64,000 nt of DNA, from contig NZ_LRMM01000001.1 of assembly GCF_001647275.1 (NCBI RefSeq), positions 186,001 through 250,000 of the forward strand. Direction: 5' to 3'. Numbering within the stretch: the stretch's first letter is position 1; each line of letters opens with the position of its first letter. The stretch is from Rufibacter ruber. Its GTDB lineage: Bacteria; Bacteroidota; Bacteroidia; Cytophagales; Hymenobacteraceae. The notes beneath the pieces were generated by a model. The model had not been told where the DNA came from. It saw only the letters and a program-made list of their open reading frames with translations, and did no database searches. A program made the position numbers and the translations under genes. Positions 10,142 through 43,186 of the stretch are shown here, piece after piece.

Positions 10142-11400
10142 CCATGCGTGCGACCCACCCCTTCCCCCCCAAGAGGGGAGTATCAGGAATGCGTGGGGGC
10201 AAGTGGCGTGTGACCGTACATCTGGCGCATGCGTGGATCTGAACGTGTCAACACCCGGACCTGCTACCTGCGGATGTGCCATCCGCGGCGCCTGCAGATC
10301 AAACGTGCCGCCGCGGATTGAACATCCCCGTGTACCAGCTTCCGGATTGCAAATCCGGAAGAGCGCAATGCTTGTCAGGGCTCAACGATATGTGCCGCCA
10401 TGGGAATTAGTCTGGAATGCGTTCCCTCCTGTGTAAACATCCCCCTTCGCCCCCTTCAAAGGGGGAGTATCAGAGTGAGTTCTGAGTTATGAGTCTTGAG
10501 TTCTGAGTCCTTCCTTTTTTCCTTAGGCAATTCAGTACGAATGAAGCAGCAATGGCTGCCCTCGCAGCTGCGCCGGCAGCCGGAGAATACCCATCATCTG
10601 TAGGCACGCGTCTGGAGACCCGTGCCAGCGCGGGAGTATCAGCTGGAGTTAGAAGGCACGGAAGTAACTTCCGCGCCATAGGGGGGCAGAAGAGGGAGCT
10701 ATAGAGGGCAGAAGTAATGTGAGGCGGCCGCCTCATGGAAGCTGAAAGCTTCCTCCATTACAGGTCCAAGTTGGAAACTTGAACCAGAGATTGTGACAAA
10801 CAAGCAGCAATAAGTAAGCAAACAAACAACAATGAACAATGAACAATGAACAACCAACACTTCTGCTGGTGGCACCTCTGTTAATTAGCACTTCTGCCTC
10901 TGGCTGATGTGCGCAGCACGGGCTCGTCTCAGGCTAGCGGATCAGCAACGGTTACCTGCAGAGGCAGAATGAGCAAGTAAGGAAGTAGCAGGAGAGGAAC
11001 CTAAACCAGTCCTGGGGGTGAGCGCCTCTGTTAATACGGTGCCGCTTCAGCGGCAAGGCCGGAGGGCCTAGTTTTAACAGCAGTGCTCACCGCCAGGACG
11101 GGGCCCCGCGGCCGTGAGCGCTTACCGGAAAAGATGAAACAACTCATTGAGTGAGGCGCTGTTAACAGCAGACCAGCCAAGGGAGCAGCGGACTACGCAT
11201 TCCTAAAACAACGGCATTGCAGCAAGCAGCCCAGCCAAGGGAACAGCAGATTATGCATTGCTACAGGCAGAAGCGGCAAAATGAAACAGTTGCTCCATTG
11301 AGACACAGCATCCAACAGCCAACGGAACCATCAAACCACGCATTCCTGCAACAGCAAAGAAAACATGAGACTCCAGGGTAAGAACAGGCTTCTGCAAGAC
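10142..11400 (+). repeat. Composite multi-copy element, copy A
   Basis: Non-coding block of about 1.26 kb with long stretches of identity to copies B (46165) and C (58900), all in the same orientation. In order it holds a GGGGAGTATCAG / GCGTGG leader, GGATTGCAAATCC-type palindromes (10270-10286 and 10339-10361), a CCCCCTTCGCCCCCTTCAAA hairpin near 10440, and short tandem TGAGTTCT units near 10473-10507. A structured core (10644-11145) follows, then a tail of degenerate CCAAGGGAACAGCAGACTAC units. A tandem CAATGAA run at about 10829-10853 is private to this copy. No reading frame explains it. End points are approximate. Confidence 0.8.
10644..11145 (+). ncRNA. Structured core of element copy A (candidate RNA)
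   Basis: Paired segments are: hairpin 10655-10677 (CGGAAG/CTTCCG); three-way junction 10714-10761 closed by GTAATG/CATTAC and holding GAGGC/GCCTC and GGAAGCT/AGCTTCC; hairpin 10763-10785 (CAAGTT/AACTTG); long-range stem 10892-10902 with 10959-10969 (TTCTGCCTCTG/CAGAGGCAGAA) around a GCTGAT/ATCAGC stem; compound stem 11009-11099 (GTCCTGG/CCAGGAC, GGTGAGC/GCTCACC, CTGTTAA/TTAACAG) capped by two small hairpins. Several pairs change in a compensated way in copies B and C. Transcription is not shown by the sequence; strand follows the best-folding reading and remains an inference. Confidence 0.45.
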
Positions 11401-35019: not shown

Positions 35020-38000
35020 CTAGGCCGCCCCAAACGCCCACACCTTATACCGCTCCTCGGCCTGCTCCAGTATTTCGTCCAGAATCTCCTGCAGGTCTGC
35101 CTGTACTTTAAACCGTAGCACCTTCTTCACTGCCAGCTGTAGCTGGGCTTTGGTGTCATCCTTCTTGTACCAGTCGGGTTGGGAGGCGCTCTTCTTGACC
35201 TCGGCCAGAATCTTTTTCACCAGATCCTTCATCTGGTCAACCTCCTGCACGGCGTGGGGGTGGTTGGCCAGGATCTGGTAGAAGGCTTCTTCCTCTTCAG
35301 TGAGGCCCAGTTGCTGGCGCAGTTGGTCTTCCTCCTGCATCTGCCTGGCCACGGCCCGCAATTTCTCCATGGCCACCAGGCTGTCAAAGAAATGGGCGTG
35401 GTAGTCTGCAATGATCTTTTCTACCTCTTCTTTAAGCTTGCGGGACTTGATCAGGTTTTTGGTGGAGCGGAGCCTGATCTCATCGTTCATGATCTGGCGC
35501 AGGAGCTCCAGCTTGAGTTCATTGCCGGTTTTCTGCTCTTTGGCGGTGGCCAGAAAGGCATCATTGATGATGGAGATGTCAAAGCGCTCTATGCCAGCCA
35601 TCTGGAAAACGTCTACCACGTCTTCAGATTCAATGCTGCGGTGGATGAGGTCTTTGATCTGGCCCTGCGTTTTCTTGCTGTTGGTGGTGGGGTATTTCAC
35701 CTTGCGCACCGCTGCGCCCACATGCTGCAGGTACACAATATCAGCGGCCAGTTCATGAATACGCTCGTGGCTTTTGACAATAGGGGCCAGGCTGCTGAGT
35801 TTCTTCTCATTCAGCATAAACGTTTTGCACAGGTCATCATCTGCCACAAGGGCGTTGGTGGCAAAACCCACCAGTTTCAGGCGTGCTGTTTTGGGCAGGC
35901 TGGAGAAGTACGGGATGGCCGCGTGCACCGACGGGAAGGTAGATACTCCCCCTTTGAAGGGGGTAGGGGGATGTTCACTCGTGCTGAAGTGCTCATTGAC
36001 TAGGTACGCATTTCGTCCCCCTTTGGAGGGGGTAGGGGGAGGATTACTCGTGCTGAGCCACGCATTGCCGGTGGTTTCTGTTTCTGTTTTTTGCTTCGTG
36101 GTGTAAGGTTCTGCGTCTTCGGCGGCCATGGTCATCCCCCTACCCCCTTCAAAGGGGGACGGAATGCGTATTTCGCTCTTTTCGCGCTTCTGAATTTGGC
36201 CTTCGCCGTTACTCCCTCCGCTATTGTCGCCTTCGCTATCGCTCTTCCGGATTTGTAATCCGGATGTATCTACTTCGGGGATTTGTAATCCCCTTTCTGG
36301 CGCTTGATGTGGAGCGGATTGTAAATCCGCAGGTACGGTGGTATGTGATGGCAAATCCCGAACAGCAGTTGCAGCAATTGGTGTTTGAAGTGTTACCTTA
36401 CCGCCAGGCAAGGCTTCGCGCAGCTGCTGAATCAGCTCTTTGGTCAATTCAAACGCCTCTTCAATGTCTACAGCCACAGCCCCAGAACCACCGGCACCAG
36501 TGTATTTCTTGGTGGCGTCGCGCAGGCGGTCACCAATGCCGATGTAGTCCACGATGAGGCCGCTGGGCTTGTCACGGAAGACGGTGGCGACGCGGTTCAC
36601 GGCCTGGATGAGGTTGTGGCCGGTCATCACTTTGTCTACGTAGAGCGTGTGCATGGCGGGGTTGTCGAAGCCGGTGAGCCACATGTCACGCACTATGACC
36701 AGTTGCAGCGGGTCATCGGGGTCTTTGAAGCGGGTCTTGATGGCTTCCATGGCTTCTTTGGTGCGCACGTGCGGGTTCCAGGCCACGGGGTCTTTGGCGA
36801 TGTTGGTGGTCATGATCACGGCTACCTCGGGGCAGTTGGGTAGGGCGGTGAGGGCGTCATAGAGCTTCACGCAATTGCGGCGGCTCATGCACACAATCAT
36901 GGCTTTACCGCTCAGGCTGGCGTTGCGGGCGGTATAGTGCTGCAGAATGTCACGGGCAATGGCGGCCACGCGTTCCTGAGAACCGGCGGCGTCTTCCATG
37001 GCAGCCCACAGAATCTTGTTCTTGTCGTTCTCGTCCAAGCCGCCGGTGATTTCCTCAGCTTCTTCCTCTAGGTGGGCGTTGCCCAGATGCAGTTTGGCTA
37101 GGCGCGGCTCGTAGTAAATGGGCACCACGGCTTTGTCCTCGGTAGCCTGCTTTATGTCATAGGTATGGATGATGTCCCCGAACACCGCCACGGTATCGGC
37201 GTCTTTGCTGTCTACGGGCGTGCCGGTGAAGCCAATGAAACTTGCCTGCGGCAGGGCGCGGCGCAGGTTGTTGGCGAAGCCCTGCACCAGGCCGTATTGG
37301 GTGCGGTGGCACTCATCGGCAATCACAATGATGTTGTCGCGGGAACTCAGGACGGGGTGCTCCAGTTCGCGGCCGGTGGAGGTGTCTTTGAGGTTGAACT
37401 TCTGCACGGTGCTGAACACCACGCCGCCGCCCTCGCCGCTGAGCAGGGTGCGCAGCTCGTCGGTGGTGTTGGCGATGGTCACGTCGCCTACCAGGTCTTT
37501 GGCGGCCACAAAATCCTCGAAGAGCTGGCGGTTCAGGTCAAAGCGGTCTACCTGCACCACAATAGTGGGGTTCCGGAGCTGGGGCAGCTGGCGCAGGATG
37601 CCAGTGTAAATGGCCATGGTGATGCTCTTGCCGGAGCGGGTGGTGTGCCAGATAACGCCAATACGGCCGTCGCCGTAGGGGCGCACGCTTTTGAGAGTTT
37701 CCTGCAGGGCGTACTGAATGCCGAAGAACTGGTGGTACTTAGCGCCTTTCTTGATGAGCTCGCCTTTGTCCAGTTCATGGAAGATGTAGTGGCGCACGTA
37801 CTGGAGCAGGCGGTGCGGCACCAGCAGTCCTTTGATGAGGGTTTCCAGCGCGAAGCCGTTGTCTACTACCTCGCGGCCGTCTATGCTTTTCCAGGCGGCG
37901 TACCACTCCAAGCCGCTGCTGAACATGCCGTGCAGGGTGGTCTGGCCGTCTGAGACCACGGTGAGGGCGTTGTACTCAAACACCGCCGGAATGTCAAGGG

Positions 38001-38403
38001 TATAGTGCTGCACCTGGTTGAAGGCGGCCTCTACGGTGGCGTCTTGGTTGAACAGGTTCTTGAACTCAAAGAGCACCAGCGGCAGGCCGTTCACAAAAAT
38101 AATAAGGTCTGGGCGGCGTTTGCCTTTGCCCACAATGGTGAACTGGTTGACTACCCTGAACTCATTATTCTGCAGGGTGTCATAGTCTACGGGGTAGAAG
38201 TGGCCGAACTGGGGTTGGCCGTGCGCGTCTTTCCAGGTTTTGCTGAGGCCTTTGCTGAGCTTTAGGTGGAAGGCGTGGTTGCGCTGGGGCAGGTCTGTGC
38301 CTTTGTTGAAGAGGAACTCCTGCTTCAGCTCCTGGCGTACCTTGTCTGGCACCTGCGGGTAGCGACGCTGCAGGTAGGCGGCAAACGCGTCTTCCAGCAC
38401 CAC
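35020..38403 (-). CDS. hsdR: Type I restriction enzyme R subunit, 5'-truncated and repeat-invaded
   Basis: 1127 aa from GTG 38403. The nuclease site RPDLIIFVNGLP...FEFKN is near residues 96-114. Helicase motifs are TTRSGKS near 252 (Walker A), ADECHRTQYG near 364 (motif II) and FIGFTGTP near 390. Motif VI reads QAVNRVATVF near 604, whereas the family usually has an Arg where this has Thr. In-frame homology continues about 24 codons upstream (WLLEQAPYTYQHGAEIKRDQ) to a TAG at about 38473, so the true N-terminus has been cut off. Residues ~678-824 are repeat-derived. No hsdS lies beside it. The protein would cut DNA with HsdM and HsdS; activity is doubtful. Confidence 0.88.
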   Translation of the reverse strand: MVLEDAFAAYLQRRYPQVPDKVRQELKQEFLFNKGTDLPQRNHAFHLKLSKGLSKTWKDAHGQPQFGHFYPVDYDTLQNNEFRVVNQFTIVGKGKRRPDLIIFVNGLPLVLFEFKNLFNQDATVEAAFNQVQHYTLDIPAVFEYNALTVVSDGQTTLHGMFSSGLEWYAAWKSIDGREVVDNGFALETLIKGLLVPHRLLQYVRHYIFHELDKGELIKKGAKYHQFFGIQYALQETLKSVRPYGDGRIGVIWHTTRSGKSITMAIYTGILRQLPQLRNPTIVVQVDRFDLNRQLFEDFVAAKDLVGDVTIANTTDELRTLLSGEGGGVVFSTVQKFNLKDTSTGRELEHPVLSSRDNIIVIADECHRTQYGLVQGFANNLRRALPQASFIGFTGTPVDSKDADTVAVFGDIIHTYDIKQATEDKAVVPIYYEPRLAKLHLGNAHLEEEAEEITGGLDENDKNKILWAAMEDAAGSQERVAAIARDILQHYTARNASLSGKAMIVCMSRRNCVKLYDALTALPNCPEVAVIMTTNIAKDPVAWNPHVRTKEAMEAIKTRFKDPDDPLQLVIVRDMWLTGFDNPAMHTLYVDKVMTGHNLIQAVNRVATVFRDKPSGLIVDYIGIGDRLRDATKKYTGAGGSGAVAVDIEEAFELTKELIQQLREALPGGKVTLQTPIAATAVRDLPSHTTVPADLQSAPHQAPERGLQIPEVDTSGLQIRKSDSEGDNSGGSNGEGQIQKREKSEIRIPSPFEGGRGMTMAAEDAEPYTTKQKTETETTGNAWLSTSNPPPTPSKGGRNAYLVNEHFSTSEHPPTPFKGGVSTFPSVHAAIPYFSSLPKTARLKLVGFATNALVADDDLCKTFMLNEKKLSSLAPIVKSHERIHELAADIVYLQHVGAAVRKVKYPTTNSKKTQGQIKDLIHRSIESEDVVDVFQMAGIERFDISIINDAFLATAKEQKTGNELKLELLRQIMNDEIRLRSTKNLIKSRKLKEEVEKIIADYHAHFFDSLVAMEKLRAVARQMQEEDQLRQQLGLTEEEEAFYQILANHPHAVQEVDQMKDLVKKILAEVKKSASQPDWYKKDDTKAQLQLAVKKVLRFKVQADLQEILDEILEQAEERYKVWAFGAA
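35935..36335. repeat. Cluster of mobile-type short repeats inside hsdR, in frame
   Basis: Three copies of a CCCCCTACCCCCTTCAAAGG-type hairpin repeat lie at about 35941-35973, 36019-36050 and 36131-36163, the middle one diverged. Three GGATTTGTAATCC-core palindromes have different outer arms: CCGG (36246-36264), GGGG (36277-36293) and GCGG (36314-36330). Read on the minus strand they add no stop and give PSPFEGGRG, PPTPSKGGR, PPTPFKGGV, ADLQSAP, RGLQIP and SGLQIRKS. The same two repeat families occur in composite elements A, B and C. Confidence 0.85.
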
Positions 38404-38588
38404 CTTGCTCTGGTCGCGCTTTATCTCGGCGCCGTGCTGGTAGGTGTAGGGCGCCTGCTCCAGCAGCCAGGACTACAAACTTTATCTGATTTCTTAGCCA
38501 CAAGTATATATGTATATTAATTTGTGGCTAAATTTCATTCCTGTGCAAGGATCAAGCGAAAAATAAATTAGAGTGTAACTAATCATCT
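38404..38588. other. Junction between truncated hsdR and AT-rich insert
   Basis: Bases 38404-38475 are still hsdR coding sequence without a start codon. Beyond about 38475 the sequence turns abruptly AT-rich (TATATATGTATATT near 38506-38519), marking the presumed replacement breakpoint that removed the hsdR 5' end. Confidence 0.6.
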
Positions 38589-40619
38589 TTAATTTATCTT
38601 AATCAAATTAGAACCAACCAATTTTAGTTGTATCTCTCTTTTAAGTGACGGACAGCAATTTGGATCAGTAGGAGCGTACTCAACTTCCTCTCCATAAAGT
38701 ATTCCCGTGTAAATCTTATTAGGAATAAAATTTCTAAACTTCTCCTCCCAGCCGACTATTTTATACTGATTATCTTTATTTATAAAGATGGCCTCTCCAG
38801 ATCCAGTGCTAGCATTTCCCATACTTCCTTTGATACCACATGAATAATGTGCAACAACATCACTAGAACCATCTCCATTGAGATCTCCTGAGACTATATT
38901 AACTATCCAGCAGTCTCTTTCTTGACCTTCAATTTTACTTAAACTTTTTGAAAATTCATTCTCGATTATTGTAGTTAATTCTTCAGGTTGTAATCCTGTA
39001 TCAGATTTTGTCTGCAGTTCTGCCTCTTCTGGACGTTCTATTGTAATTCTTATATTATCGTCAAAGACTGCAACATCAATCAAAAATGAAGAAGAGATTG
39101 CTTCGAAATATTCTTCATAACTATTCAAGCCTGGCTCAACTGGTAATATTTTAAAACCATTACTGTTAAAATATTCCCTTAATGATTTAATTATTTTATT
39201 TTTAATTTGTTCATTTCTTTTACTGTAAGATACTTTGTATTCAAAGTATCTAGGTAAATTGTCGGGAATAAAGAAGTATTCATCTCTGCTATAATAAATA
39301 TTGTATTTGCGTAACCATGTAGTTATATTTAGAGATAACGAAACTGATGCATGTTTTGAAATCTTTTCGTCCGAAACTAAAGTATGAAAATGAGTGTCTT
39401 TATTAAACTTATATTCTCCAAACCTTTCCTTAAATTCTGATGATGTTGTGTTGAAATTGAGACCCATAACTGTATGATCTTTAATGTCTTTTTTGATTCT
39501 TTCAAATATAGCATCTGTATTAAAATAATCTGACTCAACAGTTTCGTAAGGACTGTTTAATGAATAATCAGACAATAAATAATAAAATATGTCATTAGAA
39601 GCACCTTCATATTGTGGATTAATAATATATTTTCCTTCTTTGTCTATAACTCCTATCATGTTACTCGCTTTAATTAAAGCTTTATTTCCAGTGTAAGGGA
39701 AAGCAAGTTCAAATTGAGGATTAATGATTATTTTACCATCCCTATTAATATAGCCAAAACTTTCACCTATTTTAACTGCTGCTAGTTCACCGCTGGTGAA
39801 GGGGAAGGCTTCTGAGAATTGAGGGTTAATAATAATTTTACCTTCATCATCACACCATCCCCATTTATCATCTTGCTTAATTAAAAAAAGATCACCATCT
39901 TTTTTTAATTCTTGAAACTGAGGGTTAATAATATAATTGCCCTTTGTATTTATAACACCGAACTTGTTGTCTGTAGCAACCACAGCAACTCCATCCAAAA
40001 AATTACCAGCCTGTTTAAATTGAAAGTTGATAATAACCTTTCCTGTTTTATCTATATACCCCCACTTGCCACTATCATTCTCAACAGCACATATTCCATT
40101 GCTGTAATTTAAAGAACTTCTAAACTGAGGTGTAATTATCACTTTGCCTTCTTTATCAATAAAACCCCATTTAAGTTCATCATCTTTTTTAATACTGAAA
40201 GCAGCAAACCCCTCTTTAAAAATCCTTACACTATTAGCATCCTTAATACTAGCCAATATTTTGCCTTTATCATTTATTGCTGTAGGAAATGAATTTTCAG
40301 TTACTACCCAAGCTATTCCCTCGCTAAAAATAGTAGCTTCTTTATAGTTTGCAGGTATAATATATTTCCCTTCATTATTTATGTATCCCCACTTTTGGTT
40401 TTCACCTAAAGTCTTGACTAAGGCAATACCCTCTCTGAAAACACTTGCGTCACTGAATTGTGGCGGTATTGCTATGTTGCCTTCTTTATCAATATACGAA
40501 AACTCTTGCTTGTTCCTGACTGGAATTAGATTCAAATCTAATATTGTTGTTTCAGAATTACATGAAACCGCAGACATTAAGATAAGAGTAATCTTTATTA
40601 AGTGTAAAAAGTGTCTCAT
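38589..40619 (-). CDS. WG-repeat lipoprotein
   Basis: 676 aa. A lipoprotein signal (LIKITLILMSAVSC, Cys near residue 20) is followed by about ten WG repeats (KWGYIDKEGKVIINPQF type) over residues 40-360, a surface beta-repeat domain. The C-terminal ~300 residues are unassigned; they include EGQERDCWIVNIVSGDLNGDGSSDVV, resembling an FG-GAP-like Asp-rich loop. It is strongly AT-rich, unlike the flanking hsdR and hsdM. Its role beside restriction and Abi genes is unknown. It may be passenger DNA that replaced hsdS. Confidence 0.82.
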   Translation of the reverse strand: MRHFLHLIKITLILMSAVSCNSETTILDLNLIPVRNKQEFSYIDKEGNIAIPPQFSDASVFREGIALVKTLGENQKWGYINNEGKYIIPANYKEATIFSEGIAWVVTENSFPTAINDKGKILASIKDANSVRIFKEGFAAFSIKKDDELKWGFIDKEGKVIITPQFRSSLNYSNGICAVENDSGKWGYIDKTGKVIINFQFKQAGNFLDGVAVVATDNKFGVINTKGNYIINPQFQELKKDGDLFLIKQDDKWGWCDDEGKIIINPQFSEAFPFTSGELAAVKIGESFGYINRDGKIIINPQFELAFPYTGNKALIKASNMIGVIDKEGKYIINPQYEGASNDIFYYLLSDYSLNSPYETVESDYFNTDAIFERIKKDIKDHTVMGLNFNTTSSEFKERFGEYKFNKDTHFHTLVSDEKISKHASVSLSLNITTWLRKYNIYYSRDEYFFIPDNLPRYFEYKVSYSKRNEQIKNKIIKSLREYFNSNGFKILPVEPGLNSYEEYFEAISSSFLIDVAVFDDNIRITIERPEEAELQTKSDTGLQPEELTTIIENEFSKSLSKIEGQERDCWIVNIVSGDLNGDGSSDVVAHYSCGIKGSMGNASTGSGEAIFINKDNQYKIVGWEEKFRNFIPNKIYTGILYGEEVEYAPTDPNCCPSLKREIQLKLVGSNLIKIN

Positions 40620-40888
40620 TGTTTTTTTGTTGAAGGATATACTAACGGTTTATTACTGTTCTAGTAGGTTTTAAAATTGTAGCACAAAGTTAAGTTTACA
40701 ATAATAGCCAAGGATGTAAAAATTTTTATTATAATTAAAATTTAATTATATCTTGAATCAAGATTGCTTTGTAGTGATTAAGTGAAAGTCTTTTATATAT
40801 TCAAGATACAATAAAACAAATTTTAAAGGTTAATCAGCTTTTTCTTTACCTCTTGCAAGACTGCGCCAAACCGGTCAATTGCCTTTAC

Positions 40889-41479
40889 CTATTTAGGCAA
40901 ATCCTTATGGAGCCAAGTCATTATCAGTATGATTTCTTTGTGGGCATTTTCTAAATTTTGAAAGCTCCAACAGATTGGTTCGTTATGAAATATGCGATTT
41001 CGCAGATTCCTAAAATGGTTAAGAGGTGCAGAAACCGTTTTGCGTTTACGTATTGACTTTGGTAAGTTAGGAAAAGCTTTGCGTAAATCTTTCCATAGTA
41101 TTAATTCATACTCCGTGTTAAATAAACGCACCCAAAAACCCAACGTTAATTCTGCCACAACTTTTGAAGGTGTGACAATTTCGCCGCGGGTTACAATGAA
41201 TTGCTGTGCCCTGGATATTTCTTTGGTTAAGTTGGTTAAGCCAGGAGTGGTAGGGAAATGCGTATACCAATCTGGTGTGCCAAACTTTTTTGTTAATTGT
41301 TCGTTCACGGCATTGCGCAAGGCAACTTCCAATACTGAAAGACTTGGATAAAAAGCCTCTGATATTTGCAAATTGCATTGATAATGAAGAATTGCCTTGG
41401 CTTCGTTCCCAGGATGCGCGTTGAAATACTTTTGCATCCTACTGGCAGAAAAAACTTTTTCTAAATATTGCTTGTTCAT
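40889..41479 (-). CDS. Abi-family (HEPN-like) abortive infection protein
   Basis: 196 aa. The block SEAFYPSLSVLEVALRNAVNEQL near residues 38-60 and the C-terminal LNHFRNLRNRIFHNEPI near 152-168 are typical of Abi_2/AbiD-type proteins. RNRIFH fits the R-x4-H motif of HEPN ribonucleases. Members abort phage infection, probably by RNA cleavage. It lies 54 bp downstream of hsdM on the same strand, in the position hsdS would normally occupy, and is AT-richer than hsdM. It could be a transferred defence gene co-expressed with hsdM. Confidence 0.8.
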   Translation of the reverse strand: MNKQYLEKVFSASRMQKYFNAHPGNEAKAILHYQCNLQISEAFYPSLSVLEVALRNAVNEQLTKKFGTPDWYTHFPTTPGLTNLTKEISRAQQFIVTRGEIVTPSKVVAELTLGFWVRLFNTEYELILWKDLRKAFPNLPKSIRKRKTVSAPLNHFRNLRNRIFHNEPICWSFQNLENAHKEIILIMTWLHKDLPK

Positions 41480-41533: not shown

Positions 41534-43186
41534 CTATGCTGGTGATGAAGCCGGGTTTTTTCTTTTATAGCGGTGTGTAATAAACCCCGCTAGACTCTCC
41601 TTGATCCTTTCCTCCAGCACTGCACCTTCCACAAACTGCTGCATCAACTCTTCCGTCAGCTTTTGCATCTTCTCTTCAAAAGGAACACCATCATCTTCCT
41701 CTGCTCCGGAACCCACGTAGCGGCCCGGTGAGAGCCCGTAGTTGTTGGCAGCCACTTCGTCTAGCGTAGCGGCCTTACAGTAGCCCTCAATATCTGCGTA
41801 GTCGCCGCCTAGGTTGCGCCATTGGTGGTAGGTATCGGCAATGCGGGCTACGTCTGCGTCTTCAAACACGCGCAGGCGGCGGCTGGCCATGGTGCCTAGT
41901 TTGCGGGCGTCTATGAACAGGATTTCGTTTTTGCGTTCGCGGTGCTCGCCGTCGCGGCCGTCGCGGTTCTTGCTCAATAGAAAGATACAGGCGGGTATGC
42001 CGGTGGTCAGGAACAGCTTGTCGGGCATCTGCACAATGCAGTCTACAATGCCCTGGGTAATCATATGCTCGCGCACGTTCTTTTCGCCGGCGCTGCCGGT
42101 GGTCATGGCGCCGTTGGCCATCACTACGCCGGCCGTGCCACGGTCAGAGAGGTGGTGCCACAGCGTCTGGAACCACATGTAATTGGCGTTGCCGGGGGTG
42201 GTAAAGGTGTCTTTGGCCCCGAAGAGGCGCGGGTCGTTGTCGGGCAGCAGTTCGGGGTGCCAGTTGGAGATGTTGAACGGCGGGTTCATGAGGGCGTAGT
42301 CGGCCTTCAGGCCCTGGAAGCGGTCGTGTAGCAGGGAGTCGCCCAGCTTCACGTCAAAGGAGAGGTTGCGCAGCAGCAGGTTCATCTTGCAGAGGCGCAG
42401 CGTGCCCTCGTAGCGCTCCTGCCCGTAAATGGAGATGTCGTTTTTGTCGCCGCCGTGCGCCTGCAAAAACTTGAGGCTCTGCACGAACATGCCGCCGCTG
42501 CCGCAGGCTAAATCCATGATGCGGCCCTTGAGCGGCTCCAGCATCTCCACCAGCAGGCGCACCACGCTGCCCGGCGTGAAGAACTGCCCCGCACCGGAGC
42601 CCTCGGCCATGGCGAACTTGCCAATGTAGTATTCATACACGCGGCCGTAGATGTCGCTCTCGGGGTTGTTTATCTCAGAGAACTTCTCTTTGGAGAACAG
42701 GTTAATGAGCCCCGCCACCTGCGTAGGCGAGAGCTGGCTCTTCATGAAGATAGGCTCCAGCACGCCTTTATAATCTGGGTTGCGCTTGGCCAGCAGCTCG
42801 TCTATCAGCACGAAGGCCTGGTCTACTTTTACCTTGATGTCGTCCTGCTCGGCGTTCTCGCGCAGGTAGTCCCAGGTGGCTTGCTGGGGCAAGCGGTAGG
42901 CGTTCTTGACCTGGTATTCCAGCTCGTCTTCCAGCACCTCGCTCTGCTGGTGCGCTTCTATGTTGTAGTACTCAGAGCCGGGCTCCAGAAAGGAAAGCTG
43001 AATTTCCTGCTTGCGCACCTCAAAGCGCTCAGAGAGGTGCTTCACAAACAGCAGGGAGAGCACGTAGTCTTTGTACTGGTTTTCGGCCACGGCCCCGCGC
43101 AACTCATTGGCTACGTCCCAGAGTTCTTTCTCAAAATCTATATCGCCTTTGGCCGCGGGTGCCGCCTTGGGGTTCTTCTTCGCCAT
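41534..43186 (-). CDS. hsdM: Type I restriction-modification system methyltransferase subunit
   Basis: 550 aa, full length. The N-terminal HsdM_N domain (FEKELWDVANELRGAVAENQYKDYVLSLLFVK) is followed by the N6-adenine methyltransferase domain with motif I DLACGSGGMF near residue 229 and catalytic NPPF near 302. It methylates adenine in the sequence chosen by HsdS. No hsdS is present in the window, so its target is unknown. Its 5' end is present twice, the second copy lying upstream of the higBA genes. Confidence 0.94.
   Translation of the reverse strand: MAKKNPKAAPAAKGDIDFEKELWDVANELRGAVAENQYKDYVLSLLFVKHLSERFEVRKQEIQLSFLEPGSEYYNIEAHQQSEVLEDELEYQVKNAYRLPQQATWDYLRENAEQDDIKVKVDQAFVLIDELLAKRNPDYKGVLEPIFMKSQLSPTQVAGLINLFSKEKFSEINNPESDIYGRVYEYYIGKFAMAEGSGAGQFFTPGSVVRLLVEMLEPLKGRIMDLACGSGGMFVQSLKFLQAHGGDKNDISIYGQERYEGTLRLCKMNLLLRNLSFDVKLGDSLLHDRFQGLKADYALMNPPFNISNWHPELLPDNDPRLFGAKDTFTTPGNANYMWFQTLWHHLSDRGTAGVVMANGAMTTGSAGEKNVREHMITQGIVDCIVQMPDKLFLTTGIPACIFLLSKNRDGRDGEHRERKNEILFIDARKLGTMASRRLRVFEDADVARIADTYHQWRNLGGDYADIEGYCKAATLDEVAANNYGLSPGRYVGSGAEEDDGVPFEEKMQKLTEELMQQFVEGAVLEERIKESLAGFITHRYKRKNPASSPA

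Follow-up and report, generated by a model that had tools for sequence, protein, structure and literature searches.

Probable repeated insertion of palindromic mobile repeats of different families into one linker of the HsdR restriction subunit in Hymenobacteraceae

The window, i.e., the whole analysed stretch of 64,000 nucleotides from Rufibacter ruber (Hymenobacteraceae; contig NZ_LRMM01000001.1, positions 186,001 to 250,000), contains a gene of the type I restriction subunit R, hsdR, and, further along, hsdM (Table 1). The HSDR_N nuclease, the SF2 helicase and the C-terminal domains, which together characterize type I HsdR, are present in one chain. A complete hsdR start and an hsdM-hsdS-hsdR operon, which are also expected of such a gene, are lacking in the window. 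In the alignment with orthologues, the first ~16-39 residues are missing, the homology begins at WLLEQAP, and GTG is the first common start codon of the frame. In relatives, hsdS and the start of hsdR share 20 nt; here hsdS is absent between hsdM and hsdR, and the closest hsdS genes of the genome are located on other contigs. Within 38466-41479, hsdS is lost, and Abi_2-like and WG-repeat genes separate hsdM from hsdR. The HsdR protein of the window is presumably made; its expression is doubtful because the start was lost, and its activity because the first codons were lost and hsdS is gone. This copy of the gene may be decaying.

Table 1. Features of hsdR and the neighbouring genes in the window
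Feature	Coordinates	Strand	Remarks
hsdR, type I restriction subunit R, 1127 aa from GTG	35020..38403	-	Pfam HSDR_N, SWI2_SNF2, T1R_D3-like, T1RH-like_C; TIGR00348; orthologue alignment
Expanded linker, 555 nt, joins helicase domain 3 to C-terminal helical domain	35851..36405	-	78 nt in empty orthologues
Three SPF units	35947-35973, 36016-36042, 36133-36159		In frame
Partial second copy of SPF element tail, translates to FSTSEHPPTPFKGG	35947..35998	-	69-nt in-frame spacing
One complete SPF inverted-repeat element	36005..36170	-	Outer inverted repeat TACGCATTCCG-TCCCCCTTTGAAGGGGG...
Cluster of LQ hairpins, three intact (GGATTTGTAATCC-type cores) and a degenerate fourth	36245..36364	-	
Replaced 5′ end of hsdR: AT-rich, with stops, at orthologue codons 1-16	38466..38588	-	
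WG-repeat protein gene, at the expected hsdS place	38589..40619	-	
Abi_2-like gene, between hsdM and WG-repeat gene	40889..41479	-	
hsdM	41534..43186	-	

The interdomain linker of this HsdR exceeds the usual 78 nt by ~477 nt and holds six units from two dispersed repeat families, SPF and LQ, all of them in frame; the repeats occupy residues 667-834. All six had been recognized in a preliminary description of this DNA as filling a ~130-codon tract at 35935-36335. Repeats do lie there, while the linker is longer, and the degenerate fourth LQ hairpin had been missed. Most of the expanded linker is made up of a complete SPF element, a 69-nt duplication of its tail and the cluster of four LQ hairpins. 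The sequence of the SPF element is TCCCCCTTTGAAGGGGGTAGGGGGATG ... CATCCCCCTACCCCCTTCAAAGGGGGA, with the outer inverted repeat ACGCATTCCG, and it translates to RIPSPFEGGRGMTMAAED...PPPTPSKGGRNAY; its 39-nt arms are 92% complementary, and its layout is that of the intergenic copies. The tail copy is a 52-nt direct repeat, 83% identical, with a spacing of 23 codons. The intact LQ hairpins have their centres at 36249-36261, 36279-36291 and 36316-36328, and the degenerate one at about 36346-36358. The encoded peptides are SPFEGGRG, PPTPSKGGR and PPTPFKGGV for SPF and ADLQS, GLQIP and GLQIRKS for LQ; GLQIPEVDTSGLQIR and SPFEGGR are among the peptides of the insert. An Rfam scan of the window gave no match. 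In the AlphaFold model, which is poor overall (mean pLDDT 49.8, 16 sequences) and from which only the contrast between the linker and the neighbouring helices was used, the linker is predicted without structure (pLDDT 22-26), and it is probably disordered in the protein.

The copies of the repeats in the genome were counted by pattern searches. The 26-mer half-repeat of SPF gave 70 matches with no more than 3 mismatches, against 0 for the reversed control, and therefore the SPF repeats are not a product of chance. These matches collapse to 36 element sites, only one of which, that in HsdR, lies in a long ORF. The search for the SPF peptide in other proteins, which had been proposed earlier, led to the same gene: among the matches listed for 100 family genomes, hsdR was the only long reading frame containing it. 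The repeat itself is present in 68 of 200 family genomes belonging to four of six genera, the other two being without it. As only 6 of 28 elements of the window genome are both a multiple of 3 long and open in some frame, survival within a gene needs filtering. No target site duplication was evident in the SPF flanks upon inspection by eye.

The same repeats had been thought to occur as non-coding sequence in the composite elements A-C of the window. This is true of LQ (at 10.3, 46.2-46.3 and 59.0-59.4 kb), while the SPF-like unit there is a second subtype, TGTAAACATCCCCCTTCGCCCCCTTCAAAGGGG, found at window positions 10432, 46422, 59143 and 59540 and similar to those that surround DUF559 subfamily B. 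These elements also contain AAGGCACGGAAGTAACTTCCGCGCCATAG (window 10653, 46640 and 59592), which matches the 31-bp inverted repeat on both sides of a RAYT-like gene of the same genome (L063).

The length of the linker was measured between fixed anchors in HsdR orthologues. In 36 of them it measures exactly 78 nt, and every one of the 26 orthologues taken outside the family (Flavobacteriia, Cesiribacter, Nafulsella and a Chitinophagaceae MAG) belongs to this group. In 16 orthologues from Pontibacter, Rufibacter and Adhaeribacter it is 123-555 nt long; the length is divisible by 3 in 15 of these 16 expanded linkers, and the remaining one belongs to a broken gene. The alignment with linker-poor homologues, suggested earlier, thus defines the insertion, and the linker peptide was not met in unrelated genera, where it would have indicated an ancestral part of the protein. 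An ancestral linker domain is ruled out by the empty orthologues. The SPF linker peptide is confined to the three genera named, all of which carry the SPF repeat.

The contents of the expanded linkers are diverse. SPF was found in them at 11 loci, LQ in the window and in P. arcticus, and TGGTCCCCTCAAGGGGACA at three loci; the last repeat matches the inverted repeat found at a DUF559 gene in Pontibacter (L276). In addition, GGACAGGTCGCGACCTGTCC is located in the linker of L037 and also occurs in L214 and L228, and two further palindromic tracts are situated at L065/L070 and L110 (GAGACGCAAAGTATTGCGTCTC; GGGGAGTTCCACTCCCC). Since the contents differ between species, the linker is a recurrent landing site.

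It is unlikely that one ancient insertion, made in the ancestor of the family and subsequently lost in some lineages, explains all expanded linkers. The SPF inserts in HsdR of Rufibacter and Pontibacter do share frame and orientation, have inner lengths of 93-96 nt and are up to 77% identical, and the inserted copies of Rufibacter group together as a clade in the tree of the C part, but the palindrome families in the linker differ by species, the inserts of Adhaeribacter differ in length and sequence, and the outer repeats are genus-specific. Inside, the inserts of Rufibacter and Pontibacter are 65-77% identical, about as much as, or slightly more than, they are to the intergenic copies, and their outer repeat type differs. 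One insertion for the whole expanded set is already contradicted; for SPF within the Rufibacter/Pontibacter group, one insertion may have been sufficient.

The dN/dS ratio of the insert only was 0.33-0.44 within Adhaeribacter and 0.54-1.05 in Rufibacter/Pontibacter comparisons, against 0.02-0.14 for the flanking domains in most pairs; for the three pairs with L098, the N part (~50% identity in a fixed-frame comparison) was left out of the flank values because L098 is frameshifted there. The frame of the insert is kept, and its peptide is weakly constrained. Values below 1 in all comparisons but one, and the old appearance of some inserts, which have diverged in frame, could be expected if the inserted peptides had been co-opted and gave HsdR a useful extra linker. 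We consider such a role quite improbable, as the content and length of the insert vary (from 123 to 555 nt), several relatives have none, its dN/dS is well above that of the flanks, the linker is without predicted structure, and copies within one repeat family are alike for reasons besides selection.

The replaced 5′ end, GTG as the first common start and the missing hsdS, as well as the many broken hsdR genes of the family, may also be taken to mean that the gene of the window is a decaying pseudogene in which repeats piled up after selection had ceased. This explanation seems doubtful to us. The 1127-aa frame is without a stop, and its insertions total a multiple of 3; dN/dS of the flanking domains between the window and L037 is 0.08-0.09; and orthologues that carry an insert are intact in A. 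terrigena, P. arcticus, Pontibacter sp. Tf4 and others. Moreover, breakage is not associated with insertion, the intact genes of the family being 6 of 16 with an expanded linker vs 6 of 11 with an empty one; insertion as a cause of breakage is rejected by the same counts. Tolerated insertion and loss of selection can be compatible if insertion came first and decay is recent. The preliminary description had left the choice between a tolerant linker and lost selection. Tolerance is favoured because intact HsdRs carry inserts, nearly all expanded linkers keep the frame, and constraint is relaxed; lost selection may also apply to the copy of the window.

In our opinion, it is probable that palindromic mobile repeats of different families, LQ of RAYT type and SPF linked with DUF559, inserted repeatedly into one tolerant linker of HsdR in Hymenobacteraceae. 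Different short families would enter this linker several times, and only insertions with an open frame and a length divisible by 3 would persist, so that the DNA would be translated passively into a spacer that is disordered and under weak constraint. In the window linker, a nuclease-linked repeat (SPF) and a RAYT-linked one (LQ) would each have inserted.

The assignment of LQ comes from another Rufibacter genome (G005, L145), in which a 182-aa RAYT gene is bracketed on both sides by LQ hairpins; LQ is therefore a REP of RAYT type. In the window's own genome, which has three RAYT-like genes, LQ hairpins bracketing RAYT genes were not found.

SPF repeats accompany genes of another kind. In L208, an ORF located directly between inverted SPF repeats is 78% identical to the subfamily query taken from L235. 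This subfamily (A) matches DUF559/PF04480 with 94.9 bits at a cut-off of 20.6, and a solved relative is 3hrl (E 3.9e-17). All 30 subfamily A loci have SPF repeats close by, and at 15 of them one repeat lies upstream of the gene and the inverse of it downstream. Most Pontibacter have the succession repeat, ~50 bp, DUF559 gene, ~10 bp and inverse repeat; these cassettes of 436-449 bp have sharp ends (AAAGT-repeat...repeat-ACTTT) and unrelated flanks. The DUF559 gene of Rufibacter is usually followed, after its stop codon, by a complete SPF element. The Rufibacter gene is often located at one chromosomal place after the shared end of an upstream gene (...VVEELLKGVELPREVLR*), as in L216, L218, L222, L228, L231, L235 and L239, and is similar in this respect to a stationary domesticated gene.

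SPF repeats were found in 33 of 33 genomes with subfamily A vs 35 of 167 without it (p = 5e-19, for related genomes that are not independent samples), and the co-occurrence within the four repeat-bearing genera has p = 0.008, again for related genomes. About half of the SPF-bearing genomes are without subfamily A. The terminal inverted repeats are common to the SPF elements and the coding DUF559 cassette, as is expected of a MITE and its parent. The SPF element would be related, as a non-autonomous form, to the cassette whose inverted palindrome+tail repeats enclose the DUF559 endonuclease gene, and this nuclease most likely would move or copy it. On the basis of this linkage, we are slightly inclined to believe that DUF559 drives the mobility of SPF.

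SPF repeats could instead be ordinary REPs moved by RAYT, with DUF559 genes merely adjoining them. The three RAYT-like genes of the genome agree with this, as does GTAG after the palindrome in SPF, which recalls the GTAG REPs (PMC3733652). We find it hardly likely, since at the 31 Y1_Tnp loci read SPF never brackets the gene, as opposed to the constant proximity of SPF to subfamily A genes; on these 31 loci, RAYT was rejected as the partner of SPF.

DUF559 as the probable partner of SPF has parallels in other subfamilies with other palindromes: at 18 of 18 Pontibacter and Hymenobacter loci with a recognisable gene, it is bracketed by inverted repeats. Overall, such bracketing was found at 45 of 68 DUF559 loci vs 21 of 374 control genes; a stricter test across the phylum and plasmids gave a weaker result (10 of 25 ORFs, some of which are false). 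Free-standing DUF559 genes with inverted palindrome+tail repeats were seen at L213-L289 of other genomes, and the window genome has an example of its own (G000:C125:13317-13676). In Rufibacter, there are five pairs, each free-standing subfamily having its own inverted palindrome+tail repeat, which brackets or adjoins it. Among plasmid DUF559 genes (L319-L326), 4 of 8 records have bracketing inverted repeats of at least 26 nt; the hosts are Deinococcus, Azospirillum, Sinorhizobium and Pseudanabaena (Deinococcota, Cyanobacteriota and Alphaproteobacteria). No relevant paper tying DUF559 to palindromic or inverted repeats or to transposition was found in the open literature, subscription journals being outside the scope. 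The chances seem even that free-standing DUF559 proteins are dedicated mobility enzymes of a large palindrome+tail class of repeats, which would make up a second REP-like system alongside RAYT/REPIN.

One protein linker colonised repeatedly by unrelated mobile palindromes serves as a natural test of the way in which selfish DNA turns into protein sequence. DUF559, annotated as of unknown function, is probably the enzyme that belongs to a common class of palindromic repeats hitherto regarded as orphan; therefore, what moves REP-like repeats devoid of RAYT becomes directly testable.

Several known systems are comparable with that described here. According to a later source (Ogata 2000, via PMC10969869), the Rickettsia palindromic elements (RPEs) are ~150-nt palindromes translated in frame and also present outside genes. 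The parallel with them, drawn in the preliminary description, holds by description for in-frame capture: the HsdR repeats are palindromic, in frame and absent from the same gene of relatives. It does not extend to distribution, since RPEs, in that account, enter many unrelated genes, whereas here one linker of hsdR, the only long gene hit, has received several families.

Intragenic GTAG/CGTC REPs (PMC3733652) are palindromes of 20-40 nt whose dimers and clusters, frequently located in DNA-processing genes, encode up to 82 aa; in one case, recB, the site is the same in X. campestris and X. oryzae, and tolerance of linkers was already proposed there. HsdR does not appear in the passages considered. 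The present case differs in having at least four dispersed families at one site and in that SPF is not linked with RAYT.

LQ hairpins are similar to the REPIN/RAYT system in bracketing a RAYT gene in a Rufibacter, and SPF is similar to REPINs in forming inverted pairs of high copy number with usually one stationary enzyme gene in Rufibacter. Unlike that system, the gene bracketed by SPF is that of a DUF559 nuclease rather than a Y1 (HUH) transposase. SPF elements resemble MITEs in their inverted terminal repeats, length of ~135-170 nt, non-coding character and longer coding relatives with the same ends, but no target duplication was seen by eye, and the presumed parent is a DUF559 nuclease instead of a known transposase. 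In-frame palindromes were already known, while the hotspot in HsdR and the DUF559 partner look new.
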